Source of the DNA: Pelotomaculum isophthalicicum JI | GTDB taxonomy: Bacteria; Bacillota; Desulfotomaculia; Desulfotomaculales; Pelotomaculaceae | Assembly (NCBI RefSeq): GCF_029478095.1 | Contig: NZ_JAKOAV010000021.1 | Span: forward strand, 1-64,000 | Direction of reading: 5' to 3' | DNA: 64,000 nt | Shown here: positions 4,817-14,421 of the stretch, piece by piece | How positions within the stretch are numbered: the stretch's first letter is position 1 | How the letters are laid out: each line of letters starts with the position of its first letter | Made by a program: the position numbers and the translations under genes | Notes under the pieces: generated by a model | What the model was told of the DNA's origin: nothing | The model's input: only the letters and a program-made list of their open reading frames with translations | Databases searched by the model: none

Positions 4817-6196
4817 CTAACCGACCATTATCTTTTCCTCAGGGTAAATAAGTGATGCCTTACCCCGTTTTTGGGCCAAGGCAAAAGCCGCAGTCAAAGG
4901 ACCCACTCTGCCCAGGAACATAGTCATGATAATTAATAAGCGCCCGGCCACGGTTAGTTTGGGGGTAAGGCCCATGGTCAAGCCCACTGTGCCGAAGGCT
5001 GAAGTGGTTTCGAACAATACTGTTAGAAAATCCGCATTCTCTGTTATGGATAATAACAAAGAAACTACTGTAACCAAGCCCATCGCCAATATAACTATGG
5101 TGATCGACTTGTAAATCTGCTCCTGCCCGATCCGCCGGTGAAATATTTCAGCGTTTTCCTTCCCTTTAGCCATTGACCAGACAGCAATGGCCAGGGCACC
5201 CACGGTAGTGGTTTTCACGCCTCCTCCAGTGGAACCCGGCGAGGCGCCGATAAACATCAGGATCACGATAAAAAACTGCGTGGCTGAACGTAACGCCCCC
5301 GTATCAAGTGTATTGTATCCCGCCGTCCGGGGCGTAACCGCCTGGAAATAAGCGGCTAAAGTCTTGCCAACCGGACTTAGCGGTTTTAAAGTATTATCCA
5401 TTTCCAAAAAGTATATTATCAGTGTTCCTGCGATCAATAAAAGTCCGGTAACTGACAAAGTCATTTTTGTATGCAAGGACAAACGCCTAAAATTTTTATT
5501 GTGCTGAACAAGGTCGACTATGACACTAAAACCGATACCGCCTAAAATGATTAAAGTTGTAATACATAGATTTACCGTGATATCTTCAGTATACCCGGTC
5601 AGGCTCTTAAAATCTCCGAACAGATCGAAACCGGCGTTGTTAAAAGCCGAAACCGAGTGAAACAAACCGTACCAAATCCCTTTTTGCCAGCCCAGGTCAG
5701 ACGACCAGCGGATTGCCAGCAGCATGGCGAAGACAAACTCGGTGGTAAAAGTAAACAAGAGCACGTATTTGGCTAATCTCACTATACCGGCTACATTTGT
5801 CTGATTCAACGCCTCCTGGATAATCAACCTTTGCCTGAGGCCAATCCGGCGGCCCAGCAGCATAGCGAAGAAAGTAGCCATTGTCATAAACCCCAAACCG
5901 CCTACCTGGATTAAAGCCAGAATGACCACATGTCCCAAAGTGGTCCAGTGAGTGCCGGTGTCAACGACCACTAGCCCGGTGACACAAACAGCCGACGTGG
6001 CCGTAAAAAGGGAGGTTAAAAAGCTAATTTCCTGACCAGGTTGCACGGCTGACGGCATTGTAAGCAAAACAGCTCCCGTCAGAATAACCGATGCGAATCC
6101 CACCACCAGAACCTGAGACGGGGTAGCCCGCAAGGTCAACTTTTTTTGTTGTTCTCCATAAGGAGTTAAGGAACCATTTATCGAGCCTTTAAACAC
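4817..6196 (-). CDS. ktrB: potassium uptake channel subunit, TrkH/KtrB family
   Basis: About 459 residues with many membrane segments. The four filter-like loops are visible, for example SAVCVTGLVVVDTGTHW, SVSAFNNAGFDLFG, TPRTAGYNTLDTG and TSAFGTVGLTMGL. KtrB forms the K+ pore and normally works with a cytoplasmic KtrA ring, which is not encoded in this window. GTG at 6196 is chosen as the start because it follows GGAGG by 7 bp; the open frame extends 23 codons further up through a leader holding a hairpin (arms CCCAG/CTGGG) followed by GTTTTGTTTT, which might attenuate transcription. Confidence 0.92.
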   Translation of the reverse strand: MFKGSINGSLTPYGEQQKKLTLRATPSQVLVVGFASVILTGAVLLTMPSAVQPGQEISFLTSLFTATSAVCVTGLVVVDTGTHWTTLGHVVILALIQVGGLGFMTMATFFAMLLGRRIGLRQRLIIQEALNQTNVAGIVRLAKYVLLFTFTTEFVFAMLLAIRWSSDLGWQKGIWYGLFHSVSAFNNAGFDLFGDFKSLTGYTEDITVNLCITTLIILGGIGFSVIVDLVQHNKNFRRLSLHTKMTLSVTGLLLIAGTLIIYFLEMDNTLKPLSPVGKTLAAYFQAVTPRTAGYNTLDTGALRSATQFFIVILMFIGASPGSTGGGVKTTTVGALAIAVWSMAKGKENAEIFHRRIGQEQIYKSITIVILAMGLVTVVSLLLSITENADFLTVLFETTSAFGTVGLTMGLTPKLTVAGRLLIIMTMFLGRVGPLTAAFALAQKRGKASLIYPEEKIMVG

Positions 6197-6343
6197 TATT
6201 TTTCCTCCAAAACAAAACCCCAGAATGCTCCAAAAGGCACCTGGGTTTTTTATAGTATTCTGCACTGTTTATATTATAGTGATGCAATTTTAAAAAACAA
6301 GTATCCATATCCAATATTTATATAATCTTTATATACATATTAT

Positions 6344-6453: not shown

Positions 6454-7701
6454 CTACTGGAACAACCCGGGTATTATCGAAGAGATAACCAGGAGAGTTG
6501 TTAAAATAATCATTATGACAGTGGTCACCCAAGCGATCAAATTAAACACGCGGGAATTTACATGCTCACCCATCAAGTCACGGTCATTGATTAAGTTTAA
6601 CATAAACACCAGCACCAGCGGCAATAATGCGCCGTTTATCACTTGGGACCAAATCATTATTGGAATCAGAGGAATATTCGGAATAAGAATAATCCCGGCG
6701 CCGGCAACCACAAGAAAAGAATATAGCCAGTAAAAAACAGGAGCATCTTCCCAGGTCTTATCTACACCTGCTTCAAAACCAAGGGCTTCACAAATAAGAA
6801 AAGCGGTTGAAAGAGGTAAAATTGATGCTGCGAACAAAGAAGCGTTGAACAAGCCAAAAGCAAATAACTCAGAAGCCCAGCGTCCGGCCAACGGCATCAA
6901 GGCGCTGGCCGCGTCTTTGGCTGTTTCGATAGCGATGCCGTTTTTATGCAGTGTCGCCGCGCAGGCAACTACAATGAAAATAGCCACCACATTGACCATA
7001 ATCACACCAGTGATGACATCGAGACGCGAAAGTTTATAATCTTTGATCGTGATCCCTTTTTCCACTACAGCCGATTGAATGTAGAACTGCATCCAAGGCG
7101 CGATGGTTGTACCAACTAGGCCTATTAACATGGCCAGGTACTGGCTGTCAAACGTAAAATGAGGGGTTACCGTTTCTGTTAACACGACATCCCAGGGTGG
7201 TTCAGCCAGAATACCTGAAATTACGTATGAAAAATATAAAGCCGAGGCAAATAAAAATATTTTCTCTACCCTTTGGTATGTTCCCTTAACTACCAGCCAC
7301 CATACAACTAACGCGGAAACCGGTACCGATATATATTTGTTAACATTAAATATTTCCAGGCTCGCAGCTACACCGGCAAATTCCGCGATGGTATTGCCCA
7401 GACTGGAAAGAACCAAACCAAGCATCGCGAATAATATCAGACGTACTCCATATTTTTCGCGTATCAAGTCGGCCAGGCCTTTGCCTGTCACGGCTCCCAT
7501 CCGCACACCCATTTCCTGCACAACGAACAGCGCCAGAACCATGGGAATAAAAACCCACAGCATATGATAGCCGAATGTAGCCCCCGCCACGGAGTAAGTA
7601 GTGATACCCCCGGCGTCATTGTCTACATTGGCCGTAATAACCCCTGGTCCCAAAATAGAAAGAAAAAATATTACCTTTTTAATAAAAGAGGGTTTTTTCA
7701 T
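6454..7701 (-). CDS. Nramp-related divalent metal transporter of the NRMT (Mg2+) type
   Basis: 415 residues, about 11 membrane helices, clearly SLC11/Nramp fold. The metal-site motif of helix 1, DPGN in classical Mn2+/Fe2+ carriers, reads DAGG at residues 29-32. In helix 6 the usual MPHN is APWM at 201-204, so the conserved methionine is alanine. Asn-to-Gly and Met-to-Ala are the exchanges described for prokaryotic Nramp-related magnesium transporters (NRMT, Eggerthella lenta). Context agrees: the gene starts 6 bp after a PRC/MgtE_N/CBS gene and both lie behind an M-box Mg2+ riboswitch. Predicted role is uptake of hydrated Mg2+ (inference from motif plus riboswitch). A general annotation would be MntH-like, which the site residues argue against. 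Confidence 0.85.
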   Translation of the reverse strand: MKKPSFIKKVIFFLSILGPGVITANVDNDAGGITTYSVAGATFGYHMLWVFIPMVLALFVVQEMGVRMGAVTGKGLADLIREKYGVRLILFAMLGLVLSSLGNTIAEFAGVAASLEIFNVNKYISVPVSALVVWWLVVKGTYQRVEKIFLFASALYFSYVISGILAEPPWDVVLTETVTPHFTFDSQYLAMLIGLVGTTIAPWMQFYIQSAVVEKGITIKDYKLSRLDVITGVIMVNVVAIFIVVACAATLHKNGIAIETAKDAASALMPLAGRWASELFAFGLFNASLFAASILPLSTAFLICEALGFEAGVDKTWEDAPVFYWLYSFLVVAGAGIILIPNIPLIPIMIWSQVINGALLPLVLVFMLNLINDRDLMGEHVNSRVFNLIAWVTTVIMIILTTLLVISSIIPGLFQ

Positions 7702-7707
7702 GCACGC

Positions 7708-8988
7708 TCACCTCCTGCCGAAGGCTTTGCGCATCATATAATAGGAAAAGCTCTCCAGGTTCTTGCGGTCAGGTACAATAGTATTTAGAACGTCATCCAC
7801 CGTAATTATTCCGAGCATGCGACTTTTCTCATCCACCACCGGTACAGCAATCAGGTCATATTTTACGATGGTGTCAAGCACATCCCTGTGCTCGTCGCTA
7901 GATAAAACGGTAATGATCCTATCCTGCATAATTTCCTGGAGTGGAGAGCCGGGTTGGGCCATAATTAATTCACGTAAAGAAAACACTCCCAAAAGTTTTT
8001 CATCTGCATCCGTAACATAAAGGTAATAAATCATTTCAGCCGCATGAGCCGTCTCACGAATTTTATTAATAGCCTCCTGTGCGGTCATGTTTAATGCCAG
8101 GGCAATAAACTCGGTAGTCATAAGAGCGCCGGCCGTATCCTCGGGGTACTCCATTAACTCCCGCACATCTTCCGCTTCTTCAGGCTCCATCAAATTCAGC
8201 AGTTCATCCGATTTCTCCTGCGTTAATTCGCCGAGCAAATCCGCGGCCTCGTCCGGTGCCATTTCCTCAAGGATCCGGGAGGCGCGCTCACTGTCCATGC
8301 GTTCAATAATATTGACCTGTGTGTCCAGGTCTACTTCGCCTAGCGCCTCGGCAGCAGTCTGATCATCCAGGTTATTGATAAAGTGCGGTCTTTCGTAGTG
8401 ATCAAGCTCTTCTATAATCTCGGCGATATCAGCGGGGTGCAGCCTACTGAATTTGTCGGTGGTTTCGGAAAGTTTTATATTATCCGTCCTTGTACGGATC
8501 GGCTCTAAATACTGCCAGCCAACCAGGCTAACAGGCAACCGCTCTGTTTTTGGGTCATAACCGAAAACCCTCCTGAGTAAACCGCGCACACCAACATCCA
8601 CCGCGCTTAGCATAATCTCATAAGTATCTTTGCGCTTAAGCCAGGAAAGTTGGATATCATTAACCCGAACAAGCTTTGAGCCTTTAATATCTACAATTTG
8701 TTTATCAAGAAGCCATTTCTTGACAAAAAGTTCATTCTCCTGGATGTTGGCGTTATTCATAAGATCAAACTTATTTTTTAAAAAAAGGCCTTTTTTATAA
8801 AATGTATTTATTTCTGAAATATTAATGATCTTTTGGTTTCCTTTTTCATATTTAATCCCGGTTACTCTCGGGTATACCCCATCCCAAAGCACGGCAAGGT
8901 CCCTAATAGTCCCAACCTTTTTGCCCTCGGCGTCATAAATTTTTTTACCAAGGAAGGTGCTGATAAAAAATTCTCCTTGTAATTTCAC
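7708..8988 (-). CDS. PRC-barrel / MgtE N-terminal / tandem CBS domain protein, no membrane domain
   Basis: About 426 residues from a GTG at 8988 that follows AGGAGGTGC. Two PRC-barrel-like segments come first (around GKKIYDAEGKKVGTIRD and a second near residue 115), then the MgtE N-domain superhelix (LHPADIAEIIEELDHYERP, MAPDEAADLLGELTQEKSDELL), then two CBS motifs (DTAGALMTTEFIAL; IMQDRIITVLSS to MLGIITVDDVLNTI). MgtE uses these cytoplasmic domains as its Mg2+ sensor gate. The MgtE transmembrane pore is absent, so this is not a transporter itself. It is translated just before the NRMT-like carrier under the same riboswitch, so a sensing or gating partner for that carrier is likely (inference). 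Confidence 0.88.
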   Translation of the reverse strand: MKLQGEFFISTFLGKKIYDAEGKKVGTIRDLAVLWDGVYPRVTGIKYEKGNQKIINISEINTFYKKGLFLKNKFDLMNNANIQENELFVKKWLLDKQIVDIKGSKLVRVNDIQLSWLKRKDTYEIMLSAVDVGVRGLLRRVFGYDPKTERLPVSLVGWQYLEPIRTRTDNIKLSETTDKFSRLHPADIAEIIEELDHYERPHFINNLDDQTAAEALGEVDLDTQVNIIERMDSERASRILEEMAPDEAADLLGELTQEKSDELLNLMEPEEAEDVRELMEYPEDTAGALMTTEFIALALNMTAQEAINKIRETAHAAEMIYYLYVTDADEKLLGVFSLRELIMAQPGSPLQEIMQDRIITVLSSDEHRDVLDTIVKYDLIAVPVVDEKSRMLGIITVDDVLNTIVPDRKNLESFSYYMMRKAFGRR

Positions 8989-9087
8989 TTGAAGGCACCT
9001 CCTAACTCCGGGCGTGGAATTCCTTTTTGTTAATATGCCATCTTTAATCAATTTTTTTTCCTGATAGCAGTTAATTAAAAACAAAAT

Positions 9088-9300
9088 AAAAACAACCCTG
9101 AGGAAGGTATCAAAAGGGTTGTTCCCAGTAAATCCCTTTCCCCTCTCGTTTGAGCTTTGGCACGTACATAGCTAGAGAAATAATCTCAGCCACATTAGAT
9201 AAAACCTTAAGCCGGTAATACCTGTTGACCCGTTACAGTCTTTCGACTTTTCCGGGCAGTGGCATATGGTCCATGTAGAAGCCTCACCTAACGAGGAAAT
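9088..9300 (-). promoter_or_regulatory. M-box (ykoK-type) Mg2+ riboswitch with intrinsic terminator
   Basis: On the minus strand the leader has the M-box core in order: GTTAGGTGAGGC (9281-9292), a TGCCCGGAAAAGTCGAAAGA block with the P4-type GAAA loop, then GGGTCAACAG and a GGTATTACCGG segment. It ends in a textbook terminator: AACAACCC (paired positions 9091-9098 and 9116-9123) followed on the minus strand by TTTATTTTGTTTTT. High Mg2+ is expected to favour the terminator and switch off the two downstream Mg-transport genes. Exact boundaries are approximate. Confidence 0.93.
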
Positions 9301-9321
9301 TATTATATTTTCAATTTATAT

Positions 9322-10366: not shown

Positions 10367-11578
10367 CTAGAATATTATTAGGTTATCTCTATTTAACCAG
10401 TCTGGTATTTTATAACCTTTTATGGCTGGATGATCGGCAAATAACATTCTGACTTTCTTTATAGATTCATATGTTTCTTTAATTAATAATCTTTGCTCAC
10501 TAATATATTCCTTATTAAAATGATTATTATTTATACCACGCGCTAATTCTTGTTTAATAATACCAACCTTGATAAAAGGATTAATAATATCAGTATAGTC
10601 CTTATCATCAAGCAGCCTGACCTTTTTTCTCAGCCACTCATCAAGGAGTTGTATTGTGCTTTTGTCAACAGCTTGAACCTCCGCAAAGAAAGCAATATTT
10701 ATATTTTCAGACATCATATTATCCAGAACATGAACAAATTCATAATAATTTTTTTTATTTGGAATAAAAAGCGGCCTGAAGCCCTCCGGTCTGTTTTTTT
10801 TAAAATCCTCCTTAAATATTCTCTCACCAAATATCTTCAGCGACATTTCATTAATATGAAATAATTCCTCAATGAAAGCCTCATAAATTGATGCATTTTC
10901 AACCCACTCACCGAAAATAGAATTATGATAACCACCGTATACAGTTTGACACTCCTCGCCTGTTATCAAATAGGACATCCATTTACTTTGATGTTCTACA
11001 GAAAGAATATTGAGATGCCTAAGACAAGCTGCAACCACTTTTTCCTTGCTTTTTTTAACATATCCAAATTCAAATACCGGTAGTAAAATTTTATCCTTTT
11101 TACACCTGTCTTTATAATTATAAGCTATAGAACCCGAATAATCAGATATAACATTAATATGGTACCCGGATTCATTAAAATAATCATTCAAAATACTCAT
11201 TTCGAAAAACAATGGTTCTAATTGTGGTTTTCCAAGATACAACATATTGGTAAAGGGTTTATCGCTGTATTTTATTTCTTCCAGAGTAGTAGTTAAATGT
11301 TCTTCAGTAGGATAAAGGCAAATTTGTTTTATAGTATTATTATTTAATACAGAAATTTGTTGTGTAATTGGAAAATCATTATATTGTTTAATATAAGGGT
11401 TTATTGTATAATTCAATGTTATCTTTTTTTCTTTGATTAAATCAACTATTATTGTTTTCAACATATTTTCATTTAAATCCATATATTCTATTTTTATCTC
11501 ATCATAAGGGATTCCATTAAAATCATTGGAATTAATATAATAACTAGTTATTCTTTTTAATATTTCTATCTTGCTCAA
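10367..11578 (-). CDS. AT-rich orphan protein of unknown function (403 aa)
   Basis: I recognise no family. The predicted protein is rich in Ile, Asn, Lys and Tyr. The first ~75 residues look like a helical, possibly winged-helix-like segment, the middle has SDYSGSIAYNY and GYHNSIFGEW, and the C-terminal half is helical and charged. No signal peptide or membrane helix is visible. Base composition is clearly more AT-rich than in neighbouring genes, and the gene ends 2 bp from the convergent flavoprotein gene. Recent transfer, possibly of an accessory or defence gene, is an inference from composition only. Confidence 0.75.
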   Translation of the reverse strand: MSKIEILKRITSYYINSNDFNGIPYDEIKIEYMDLNENMLKTIIVDLIKEKKITLNYTINPYIKQYNDFPITQQISVLNNNTIKQICLYPTEEHLTTTLEEIKYSDKPFTNMLYLGKPQLEPLFFEMSILNDYFNESGYHINVISDYSGSIAYNYKDRCKKDKILLPVFEFGYVKKSKEKVVAACLRHLNILSVEHQSKWMSYLITGEECQTVYGGYHNSIFGEWVENASIYEAFIEELFHINEMSLKIFGERIFKEDFKKNRPEGFRPLFIPNKKNYYEFVHVLDNMMSENINIAFFAEVQAVDKSTIQLLDEWLRKKVRLLDDKDYTDIINPFIKVGIIKQELARGINNNHFNKEYISEQRLLIKETYESIKKVRMLFADHPAIKGYKIPDWLNRDNLIIF

Positions 11579-11775: not shown

Positions 11776-14421
11776 TTGCTTCATCAACAAAAAGATATTA
11801 GCATAAAGAAGGAAGCTCTTCAAATGATCAAGCCCCATAATCACCTTTGCTTGATTTATGACACGCCGGAAGAATGGTATGATATTGTCATCCCGTTTTT
11901 TCTCCTGGGTCTCGAGCAGGGTGACAAATGTATTTATATCGCGGACGCAAGCACTGCTGACCAAATACGCGTCTTTTTAAATGAAGAAGGTGTCAATGTA
12001 GCTGCTGTTGAATCATCAGGGCAATTTGTCATCCTGACAATAACCGAAATCCAACCGGAAGATGGCATATTTGACCCTGACCAAATGATTTCATTATTAA
12101 AAAAAGAAACAGCTAAGGCAATGCACGAAGGCTATAATGCCATACGTATAACCGGAGAAATGACCCGGTTTCTCCAGGTTGGAACAGATGCGAGCAAGCT
12201 AATAGAATACGAGGCTAAGCTAAATTATTTCTTCCCGGAATATCCTTGTGTATCCATTTGCCAGTATAACCGTAAAGAAACCGCTCCGGAAATCATTAAA
12301 GAAGTGATTATGACTCACCCGATACTGGTGCATGGCAGCCATATTCACCACAACTTTTATTATTTGCCGCCAAATTATTTTCTAAACCAAAAAAGTAGTG
12401 CATGCGAAGTTGAGCACTGGTTAAATAACTTGGAAAACAAGTATAACATTGAGGAGCGGTACCGGCGAATTGTCGAAACCGCCAATGAGGGCATCTGGAT
12501 ATTGGATGCCAACCATCAGACAACTTTCGCCAATGAAAAACTGGCATTAATGTTTGGCTCTACTGTTGAAGAAATGAACGGGCGGTCTCATTTTGATTAT
12601 ATAGACAAAAAACAATGGTCCGATGTTAATAACGCCATGGAACGCCGCAAATTAGGAATCTGGGAACAATACGAAATCGAGTACCGCCGCAAAGACAACT
12701 CACCATTTTGGGCGATAGTGTCCGCCACCCCCTTTTTTGACCAAAACGGCCGCTTTATTGGCTCGTTGGGAATGCTCACGGACATCACGAAGAGAAAGCA
12801 GGCTGAGCGGGAACTGCAAATGAGCAACGAGGAACTGATATCAGCTAACGAGGAATTGACAGCCATAAATGAAGAATTGATTGCTACAGAGGAAGAACTC
12901 AGGCAGCAGTATGAGAAACTGCAGAAGAAAGAGGCAGACTTGGCGGTGGCGAACCAGCAACTTCAGGATATTATTGAATTCCTCCCGGATGCCACTTTTG
13001 TTATCGGTAAGGATAGGAAGATTATCGCCTGGAACCAGGCTATCGAAGAAATGACCGGTATGCCAAAAGAACAAATGCTGGGCAAAGGAGATTATGTGTA
13101 TTCAATTCCTTTTCACGGAAGACCCCGCCCGGGTTTGGTTGATTTTGCCTTCAACACCGATTTTGATCCTGATTCTTTTTATGACTGCTTCGAAAGAAAA
13201 GGTATCACTTTGCATGGGCAGACATATTTGCCTGACATGCATGGAGGAAAGGGCGCCTATATTTGGGGCATCGCTTCACCGCTTTTTGACAAGGAAAAGC
13301 GGATCGTTGGAGCAATTGAGACTATTCGTGACATTACTGAACAAAAGCAGCTTGAAGAACGCCTGAAACATATAAGCCTACATGATACTCTCACCGGCCT
13401 GCATAATCGCGCTTATTTTGAGGAGGAAATGCGGAGGATAGAGGCAGGACGCGGTAATTCGGTGGGTATTATTGTTTGCGATGTGGACGGACTTAAATTT
13501 GTCAACGATACACTTGGCCATGAAGCCGGGGATGCCTTACTGCTGACAGCTGCCCGTATCATCAAAAGTTCCTTTCGGGAAAGCGATATGGTAGCAAGAA
13601 TTGGCGGCGACGAATTCGCCGCAATTATTCCTAACAGTGAAGAGAATACTGTTGAAGAAGCCTGTAACAGAATAAAGCGCACCATAGATAGTTATAACGA
13701 AACAAACCGGGAGTTGCCGCTCAGCATTTCCGTCGGTTTTGCCGCAAGAAGAGATCTTTCAGTGAGTATCAATGAACTCTTTAAAGAAGTAGACAACAAA
13801 ATGTACCGTGAAAAGCTCCACCAGGCCCAAAGCACACGCAGCGCCGTAGTGCAAACTTTGATGAAAATGCTTCAGGTAAGGGATTTTATGACAGAAGAGC
13901 ACGCGGACCGGTTACAGATCCTGATAGTAGATCTGGCTTCAGCTATCGATTTGCCCGAACGCAGTGTGACCGACTTGCGCCTTCTGGCACAATTTCACGA
14001 TATCGGCAAGGTGGGAGTGCCAGACAGCATTCTTTTTAAACCTGGCCCTTTAAATGCTGAAGAGACTGCTGAAATGAGGCAACATTGTATAATCGGCCAC
14101 CGTATTGCCATACTCGCGCCGGATCTTGTCCCGATTGCCGACTGGGTCCTGAAACACCATGAGTGGTGGAACGGCGAGGGATACCCCCTTGGCTTAAAGG
14201 GTGAGGAAATACCGTTGGAATGCCGTATTCTGGCCATTGTTGACGCTTATGACGCCATGATTAGCGACCGTCCTTACCGCAAGGCAATGACCCAGAGGGA
14301 AGCCATAAATGAACTGCGGAACTGTTCAGGAACACAATTTGATCCTCAACTGGTAGAAAAATTCATTCACTTGCTGGATAAAAGAAGACTCTATGACCTG
14401 TCTGTTCCGTTATTATCATGA
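11776..14421 (+). CDS. MEDS-PAS-PAS-GGDEF-HD-GYP signalling protein
   Basis: 881 residues. An N-terminal MEDS (DcmR-like) sensory domain spans ~15-175 (NHLCLIYDTPEEWYDIVIPF and later RITGEMTRF). A PAS domain follows (~225-345), then a coiled coil with repeated NEELI units (~345-395), a second PAS (~395-515), a GGDEF domain with intact RIGGDEFA, and an HD-GYP domain with HDIGKVG and HHEWWNGEGYP. It could both make and degrade c-di-GMP; the MEDS domain is known from sensing of methylotrophic or hydrocarbon-like signals. There is no membrane segment, so it is cytoplasmic. A TTG start at 11776 follows GGGAGGAAA; an ATG at 11824 is an alternative. Confidence 0.93.
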   Translation: MLHQQKDISIKKEALQMIKPHNHLCLIYDTPEEWYDIVIPFFLLGLEQGDKCIYIADASTADQIRVFLNEEGVNVAAVESSGQFVILTITEIQPEDGIFDPDQMISLLKKETAKAMHEGYNAIRITGEMTRFLQVGTDASKLIEYEAKLNYFFPEYPCVSICQYNRKETAPEIIKEVIMTHPILVHGSHIHHNFYYLPPNYFLNQKSSACEVEHWLNNLENKYNIEERYRRIVETANEGIWILDANHQTTFANEKLALMFGSTVEEMNGRSHFDYIDKKQWSDVNNAMERRKLGIWEQYEIEYRRKDNSPFWAIVSATPFFDQNGRFIGSLGMLTDITKRKQAERELQMSNEELISANEELTAINEELIATEEELRQQYEKLQKKEADLAVANQQLQDIIEFLPDATFVIGKDRKIIAWNQAIEEMTGMPKEQMLGKGDYVYSIPFHGRPRPGLVDFAFNTDFDPDSFYDCFERKGITLHGQTYLPDMHGGKGAYIWGIASPLFDKEKRIVGAIETIRDITEQKQLEERLKHISLHDTLTGLHNRAYFEEEMRRIEAGRGNSVGIIVCDVDGLKFVNDTLGHEAGDALLLTAARIIKSSFRESDMVARIGGDEFAAIIPNSEENTVEEACNRIKRTIDSYNETNRELPLSISVGFAARRDLSVSINELFKEVDNKMYREKLHQAQSTRSAVVQTLMKMLQVRDFMTEEHADRLQILIVDLASAIDLPERSVTDLRLLAQFHDIGKVGVPDSILFKPGPLNAEETAEMRQHCIIGHRIAILAPDLVPIADWVLKHHEWWNGEGYPLGLKGEEIPLECRILAIVDAYDAMISDRPYRKAMTQREAINELRNCSGTQFDPQLVEKFIHLLDKRRLYDLSVPLLS

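Follow-up and report, generated by a model that had tools for sequence, protein, structure and literature searches.

Does a pore-less magnesium sensor regulate the transporter encoded beside it? The question is raised by a stretch of 64,000 nucleotides from Pelotomaculum isophthalicicum JI (contig NZ_JAKOAV010000021.1, positions 1 to 64,000; the window), in which a minus-strand gene for the cytoplasmic half of an MgtE-like protein precedes a gene for an Nramp-related carrier. The first-pass annotation of this DNA read the two genes as a detached Mg2+ sensor acting on a carrier of unrelated fold, with feedback at both the RNA and the protein level, and regarded the arrangement as new. Along the minus strand the order is M-box, terminator-like hairpin, sensor and NRMT (Table 1). 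The 6-bp spacing that had been given for the two genes was correct: the sensor stop codon occupies 7710-7708 and the NRMT ATG lies at 7701. The likely start of the sensor is the GTG at 8988, which AGGAGG precedes by about 8 nt.

Table 1. Features of the sensor-NRMT locus, in window coordinates.
Feature	Position	Strand	Basis
M-box (ykoK leader) Mg2+ riboswitch aptamer	9302..9134	-	RF00380 cmscan
Probable riboswitch terminator	9077..9126	-	12-bp hairpin GGGAACAACCCU...AGGGUUGUUUU, then U-rich tail, read from sequence
Soluble MgtE-like Mg2+ sensor, 426 aa	7708..8988	-	Pfam, PDB sequence search, AlphaFold2, Foldseek, site-residue alignment
NRMT-type Nramp (SLC11) magnesium carrier, 415 aa	6454..7701	-	Pfam, PDB match, site pattern

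The element for RNA-level feedback was indeed present upstream on the same strand. The M-box scored 141.2 bits (gathering cutoff 44), covered model positions 1-169 in full and was the sole M-box of a genome that encodes no full-length MgtE and one CorA. The probable terminator hairpin was unusually stable when folded alone (-14.7 kcal/mol, z -2.36), whereas the folding stability of the whole 176-nt leader end was ordinary (z -0.52). A simple terminator scan did not list this terminator, as the hairpin loop exceeds the length that the scan permits.

In the sensor, Pfam identified MgtE_N at residues 183-284 (103 bits) and two CBS stretches (66 bits) whose pair spans about residues 290-404. The membrane pore domain PF01769 was absent, no membrane segment was found (top 19-residue Kyte-Doolittle mean, 1.19), and the C-terminus is a short basic tail where MgtE has its plug helix. 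The MgtE model TIGR00400 scored 197 against the sensor, below its cut-off of 232.75, and the match covered just 18-252 of 450. The AlphaFold2 model (mean pLDDT 83, pTM 0.57) contains a C-terminal domain of which about 230 residues superpose on cytosolic structures of MgtE, and Foldseek aligned the sensor to 2yvy with an rmsd of 2.0 Å and a TM score of 0.86 by target length. The sensor is a pore-less MgtE-related protein without a membrane segment. Its earlier description as PRC-barrels followed by MgtE_N and CBS domains stood except for the plural: within an N-terminal PRC-barrel region of about residues 1-160, modelled as beta-rich, one unit passed the Pfam cutoff (residues 5-32, 26.9 bits, cutoff 21.2). 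More than one barrel is suggested by the AlphaFold2 model and by relatives; in one of these (L228), two PRC stretches were detected. An identical sensor sequence (100%) occurs in Pelotomaculum sp. PtaB.Bin013.

The neighbouring gene, previously called NRMT-like, encodes by its sequence an NRMT-type Mg2+ carrier. It matched Pfam Nramp with 321.7 bits, and its best PDB match was EleNRMT (7qia, E 4e-121), with MntH at about 1e-30. Ungapped alignment to EleNRMT placed NDAGG in helix 1, with Gly for the metal-site Asn, and TTIAPW in helix 6, with Ala for the selectivity Met and Trp for His; these changes are the NRMT site pattern according to the EleNRMT structural paper (PMC8806188). The window carrier thus resembles EleNRMT over its full length and in its metal site, and a sensor partner goes unmentioned in the accessible portion of that paper.

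The claim of novelty did not survive, since Shin et al. (2014; PMC4072509) had already described the pairing and proposed the same cytoplasmic feedback. They showed Nramp-related Mg2+ transport under M-box control in Clostridium acetobutylicum and reported that most NrmT genes adjoin a homologue of the N-terminal cytoplasmic domain of MgtE, often under M-boxes, with the M-box marking the Mg2+-transporting members. For the fragment they proposed cytoplasmic feedback or chaperone activity, and its role beside NrmT was left open. The window locus shares with these operons the gene order, the M-box and the juxtaposition of an Nramp-related Mg2+ carrier with a homologue of the MgtE cytoplasmic domain, and differs from them in species and sequence alone; the accessible portion of that paper makes no mention of a PRC-barrel part. 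The C. acetobutylicum fragment is split in two, as it is in one Bacillota genome of our survey (G124, locus L100), where PRC and MgtE_N-CBS are encoded as two genes. In the literature text searched, which included few subscription papers, we found no later test of the fragment's role and no account of a PRC part with NrmT.

To what extent the two genes stay together was surveyed with both proteins in 299 Bacillota genomes, with NRMTs accepted at identities of at least 48%. The sensor lay directly upstream on the same strand at all 28 NRMT loci, the window included, with 10-169 bp between the two matches, and an M-box preceded 20 of the 27 other pairs. Sensors were scarce near other Bacillota Nramps, with two of 70 within 5 kb, each adjoining an existing NRMT pair. 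Conversely, three of 31 Bacillota sensors had no NRMT; one of these (G231) was rejected because its contig stops there, which leaves two real cases. The other three phyla were searched with NRMT as the query, and the pairing recurred at 12/12 loci in the archaeal Halobacteriota, at 28 of the best 30 loci in Actinobacteriota (in six of them with a partner that is PRC-only) and, within about 6 kb, at 23 of the best 30 in Acidobacteriota. Where sensor and NRMT are about 1.2-1.3 kb apart in Acidobacteria, an unrelated gene lies between them, a glycosyltransferase by the look of its sequence. Sensor-NRMT gene fusions were absent from the 80 loci examined, and in those of the 80 with a visible end the sensor frame stops at most 38 aa past the CBS pair. 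The neighbourhood of sensor and NRMT is therefore conserved far beyond chance in bacteria and archaea; of the two grounds that had been named together for dropping the regulatory interpretation, absence of such a neighbourhood and lack of any interaction or effect on transport, the first fails. The remaining seven of the best 30 acidobacterial NRMTs, around which a span of about 6 kb held no sensor, and the six actinobacterial PRC-only partners indicate that Mg2+ sensing is not always supplied by an adjacent gene, a point against that interpretation.

Of the acidic residues that bind Mg2+ in MgtE, the core is kept and the outer sites are lost. In Thermus (Tt) numbering, D95 and D247 were invariant in 106/106 sensor relatives, D91 was kept in 94/106, and all relatives except two carry E or D at the E59 position. 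The window sensor has Tt E59, D91, D95, D226 and D247, which correspond by alignment to E214, D246, D250, D378 and D399 of its own sequence (Tt D95 being its D250 and Tt D247 its D399). In MgtE, mutations at sites Mg4 (D91/D247), Mg5 (D226/D250), Mg6 (D95) and Mg7 (E59) affect Mg2+-driven closure (PMC5882242), and of the residues forming these four sites the window sensor lacks Tt D250 only. Its substitutions at Tt positions are D250 to N, E216 to R and D214 to E, and the plug-helix Mg2+ sites (Tt E258/D259; Mg2/Mg3) are missing. MgtE gating geometry could therefore not be copied unchanged, and with the plug helix gone any action on the transporter would have to go through another surface. The ATP-site residue Tt Phe227 is Leu in the window sensor and in 46/49 NRMT-linked relatives; since F227A abolishes ATP binding by MgtE (PMC5529423), this residue pattern makes ATP control in the MgtE manner unlikely. 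Compared with the MgtE channel (TIGR00400; T. thermophilus 2yvx/2zy9), the sensor thus shares the order of N and CBS domains, the fold and the core acidic residues, but lacks the pore and the plug helix, carries Leu for Phe227 and has an added N-terminal PRC region.

Given the domains observed, the conserved core aspartates of the Mg2+ sites, the riboswitch and the persistence of the pairing in bacteria and archaea, we consider it probable, if well short of assured, that the detached sensor gives protein-level feedback on NRMT, the two genes forming an operon for Mg2+ uptake. When Mg2+ is low, the M-box would permit transcription of both genes, and NRMT would bring Mg2+ in without proton coupling. 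As cytosolic Mg2+ rises, ions would bind between the N and CBS domains of the sensor, as in MgtE, and the Mg2+-bound sensor would compact, act at the cytoplasmic face of NRMT and slow uptake. We infer Mg2+ binding by the sensor, its contact with NRMT, the inhibitory direction and a docking role for PRC, the N-terminal PRC-barrel part being the likeliest docking piece. EleNRMT transports without proton coupling (PMC8806188), so that such a carrier follows the gradient and would profit from a cytosolic brake. The regulatory interpretation, published earlier as a hypothesis, is plausible and is strengthened by the survey.

The forms taken by the NRMT partner bear on this reading. The usual form is the soluble PRC-MgtE_N-CBS protein of the window type. 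At 12/30 actinobacterial loci, sensor and NRMT seemed to be separated by an extra gene, in gaps of 600-750 bp; there the sensor itself has a membrane extension at its C-terminus, which runs for another 190-220 aa with 4-5 hydrophobic segments and reaches the NRMT gene. One of these proteins (L228) aligned with T. thermophilus MgtE end to end, and L228, L236 and L158 matched TIGR00400 nearly in full, with 223-238 bits around the cut-off of 232.75; in the L228 and L236 alignments, other residues stand where the Thermus pore domain has its GGNTGNQ stretch. We read the membrane-extended partners as anchored MgtEs that have probably lost channel function, and a diverged membrane domain beside NRMT is what an MgtE that gave up its channel role would be expected to leave. 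At the six actinobacterial loci mentioned above, the partner is a PRC protein alone, about 190 aa long and encoded downstream; three membrane-extended loci carry a PRC protein as well. PRC is a candidate dock because it persists where the sensing part is absent.

Two earlier results count against feedback: in B. subtilis, Mn2+ uptake was restored by the Acidobacterium capsulatum carrier, which acted as a Mn2+ transporter, and those of C. acetobutylicum were functional without the fragment (PMC4072509). In the sole co-expression test, the A. capsulatum fragment made Mg2+ rescue no better (PMC4072509), which is weak counter-evidence, as a brake is not expected to raise rescue. The Mn2+ result would also suit a pair serving a different divalent metal, for instance Mn2+, to which the sensor would respond. 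We regard this as improbable for the window, where the pair stands behind an M-box, the mark of Mg2+-transporting members (PMC4072509), and where NRMT has Ala for the selectivity Met together with the other EleNRMT site changes. A Mg2+ chaperone or buffer, or a factor for NRMT assembly or stability, would be a better contender, although still an unlikely one: Shin et al. (2014; PMC4072509) named chaperone activity as an alternative, and the PRC-only partners at six actinobacterial NRMTs could aid the carrier without sensing Mg2+. Such a role sits poorly with the invariant aspartates of the core Mg2+ sites, where the N and CBS domains meet. Moreover, free Mg2+ at millimolar concentrations scarcely requires a chaperone.

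The sensor family also occurs away from NRMT. In Nocardioides, Microbacterium, Embleya and other Actinobacteria, it was paired with a DUF1003 membrane protein at 23/23 and 20/20 loci; the DUF1003 gene follows the sensor (L048:6253-6837 and L116-L135). Five of these genomes were checked and contained no NRMT, their Nramps being MntH-like or lacking altogether. DUF1003-linked sensors keep D95 and D247, and their ATP-site residues are altered further. The DUF1003 protein is a candidate second partner of a detached sensor. Two isolated Bacillota arrangements were also seen: a third, solitary sensor copy behind an M-box with no adjoining transporter gene (L087:2131-3432, genome G155), and, without an M-box, a sensor paralogue that shares 83% identity with the NRMT-linked copy and precedes the gene for an APC-type permease of 648 aa (L098:3023-6409, genome G003; one genome only).

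These cases would fit a Mg2+ (or nucleotide) signalling protein of general function that acts mainly on another protein and shares the operon with NRMT only because the two are both produced at low Mg2+. The DUF1003 pairing, in genomes mostly without NRMT, the solitary M-box sensor and the APC-linked copy all speak for it. Yet the sensor stays with NRMT in four phyla, mostly across very short gaps, Bacillota sensors are not found with other Nramps, and the APC and solitary cases each come from one genome; we therefore judge this role unlikely, slightly more so than that of a chaperone or assembly factor. A broader proposal, which we offer tentatively and with some doubt, is that PRC-MgtE_N-CBS is a general, exchangeable Mg2+ sensor descended from an MgtE after loss of its pore, whose PRC-barrels would dock membrane partners of unrelated fold (NRMT in four phyla, DUF1003 in Actinobacteria, occasionally others), with only the PRC dock remaining where sensing is dispensable. 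In the literature searched, DUF1003 was seldom mentioned, and we found no mention of the DUF1003-paired branch, of PRC-only partners or of partners that keep a membrane domain.

If the sensor gates NRMT, a channel and a carrier of LeuT fold are governed by one and the same Mg2+-sensing module, which would be a clean example of partner switching by a regulatory domain. The conserved site residues, the diverged anchored relatives and the PRC-only partners provide ready mutants and comparisons for testing the role of the sensor.

Elsewhere in the window, a TrkH-type K+ uptake protein is encoded on the same strand 188 bp 3' of the NRMT gene (4817-6265). A minus-strand ORF of 403 aa (10367-11578) matched nothing in Pfam or NCBIfam at E 0.001, and the plus strand at 11776-14421 encodes an 881-aa protein with MEDS, PAS, GGDEF and HD domains, probably a cyclic-di-GMP enzyme.
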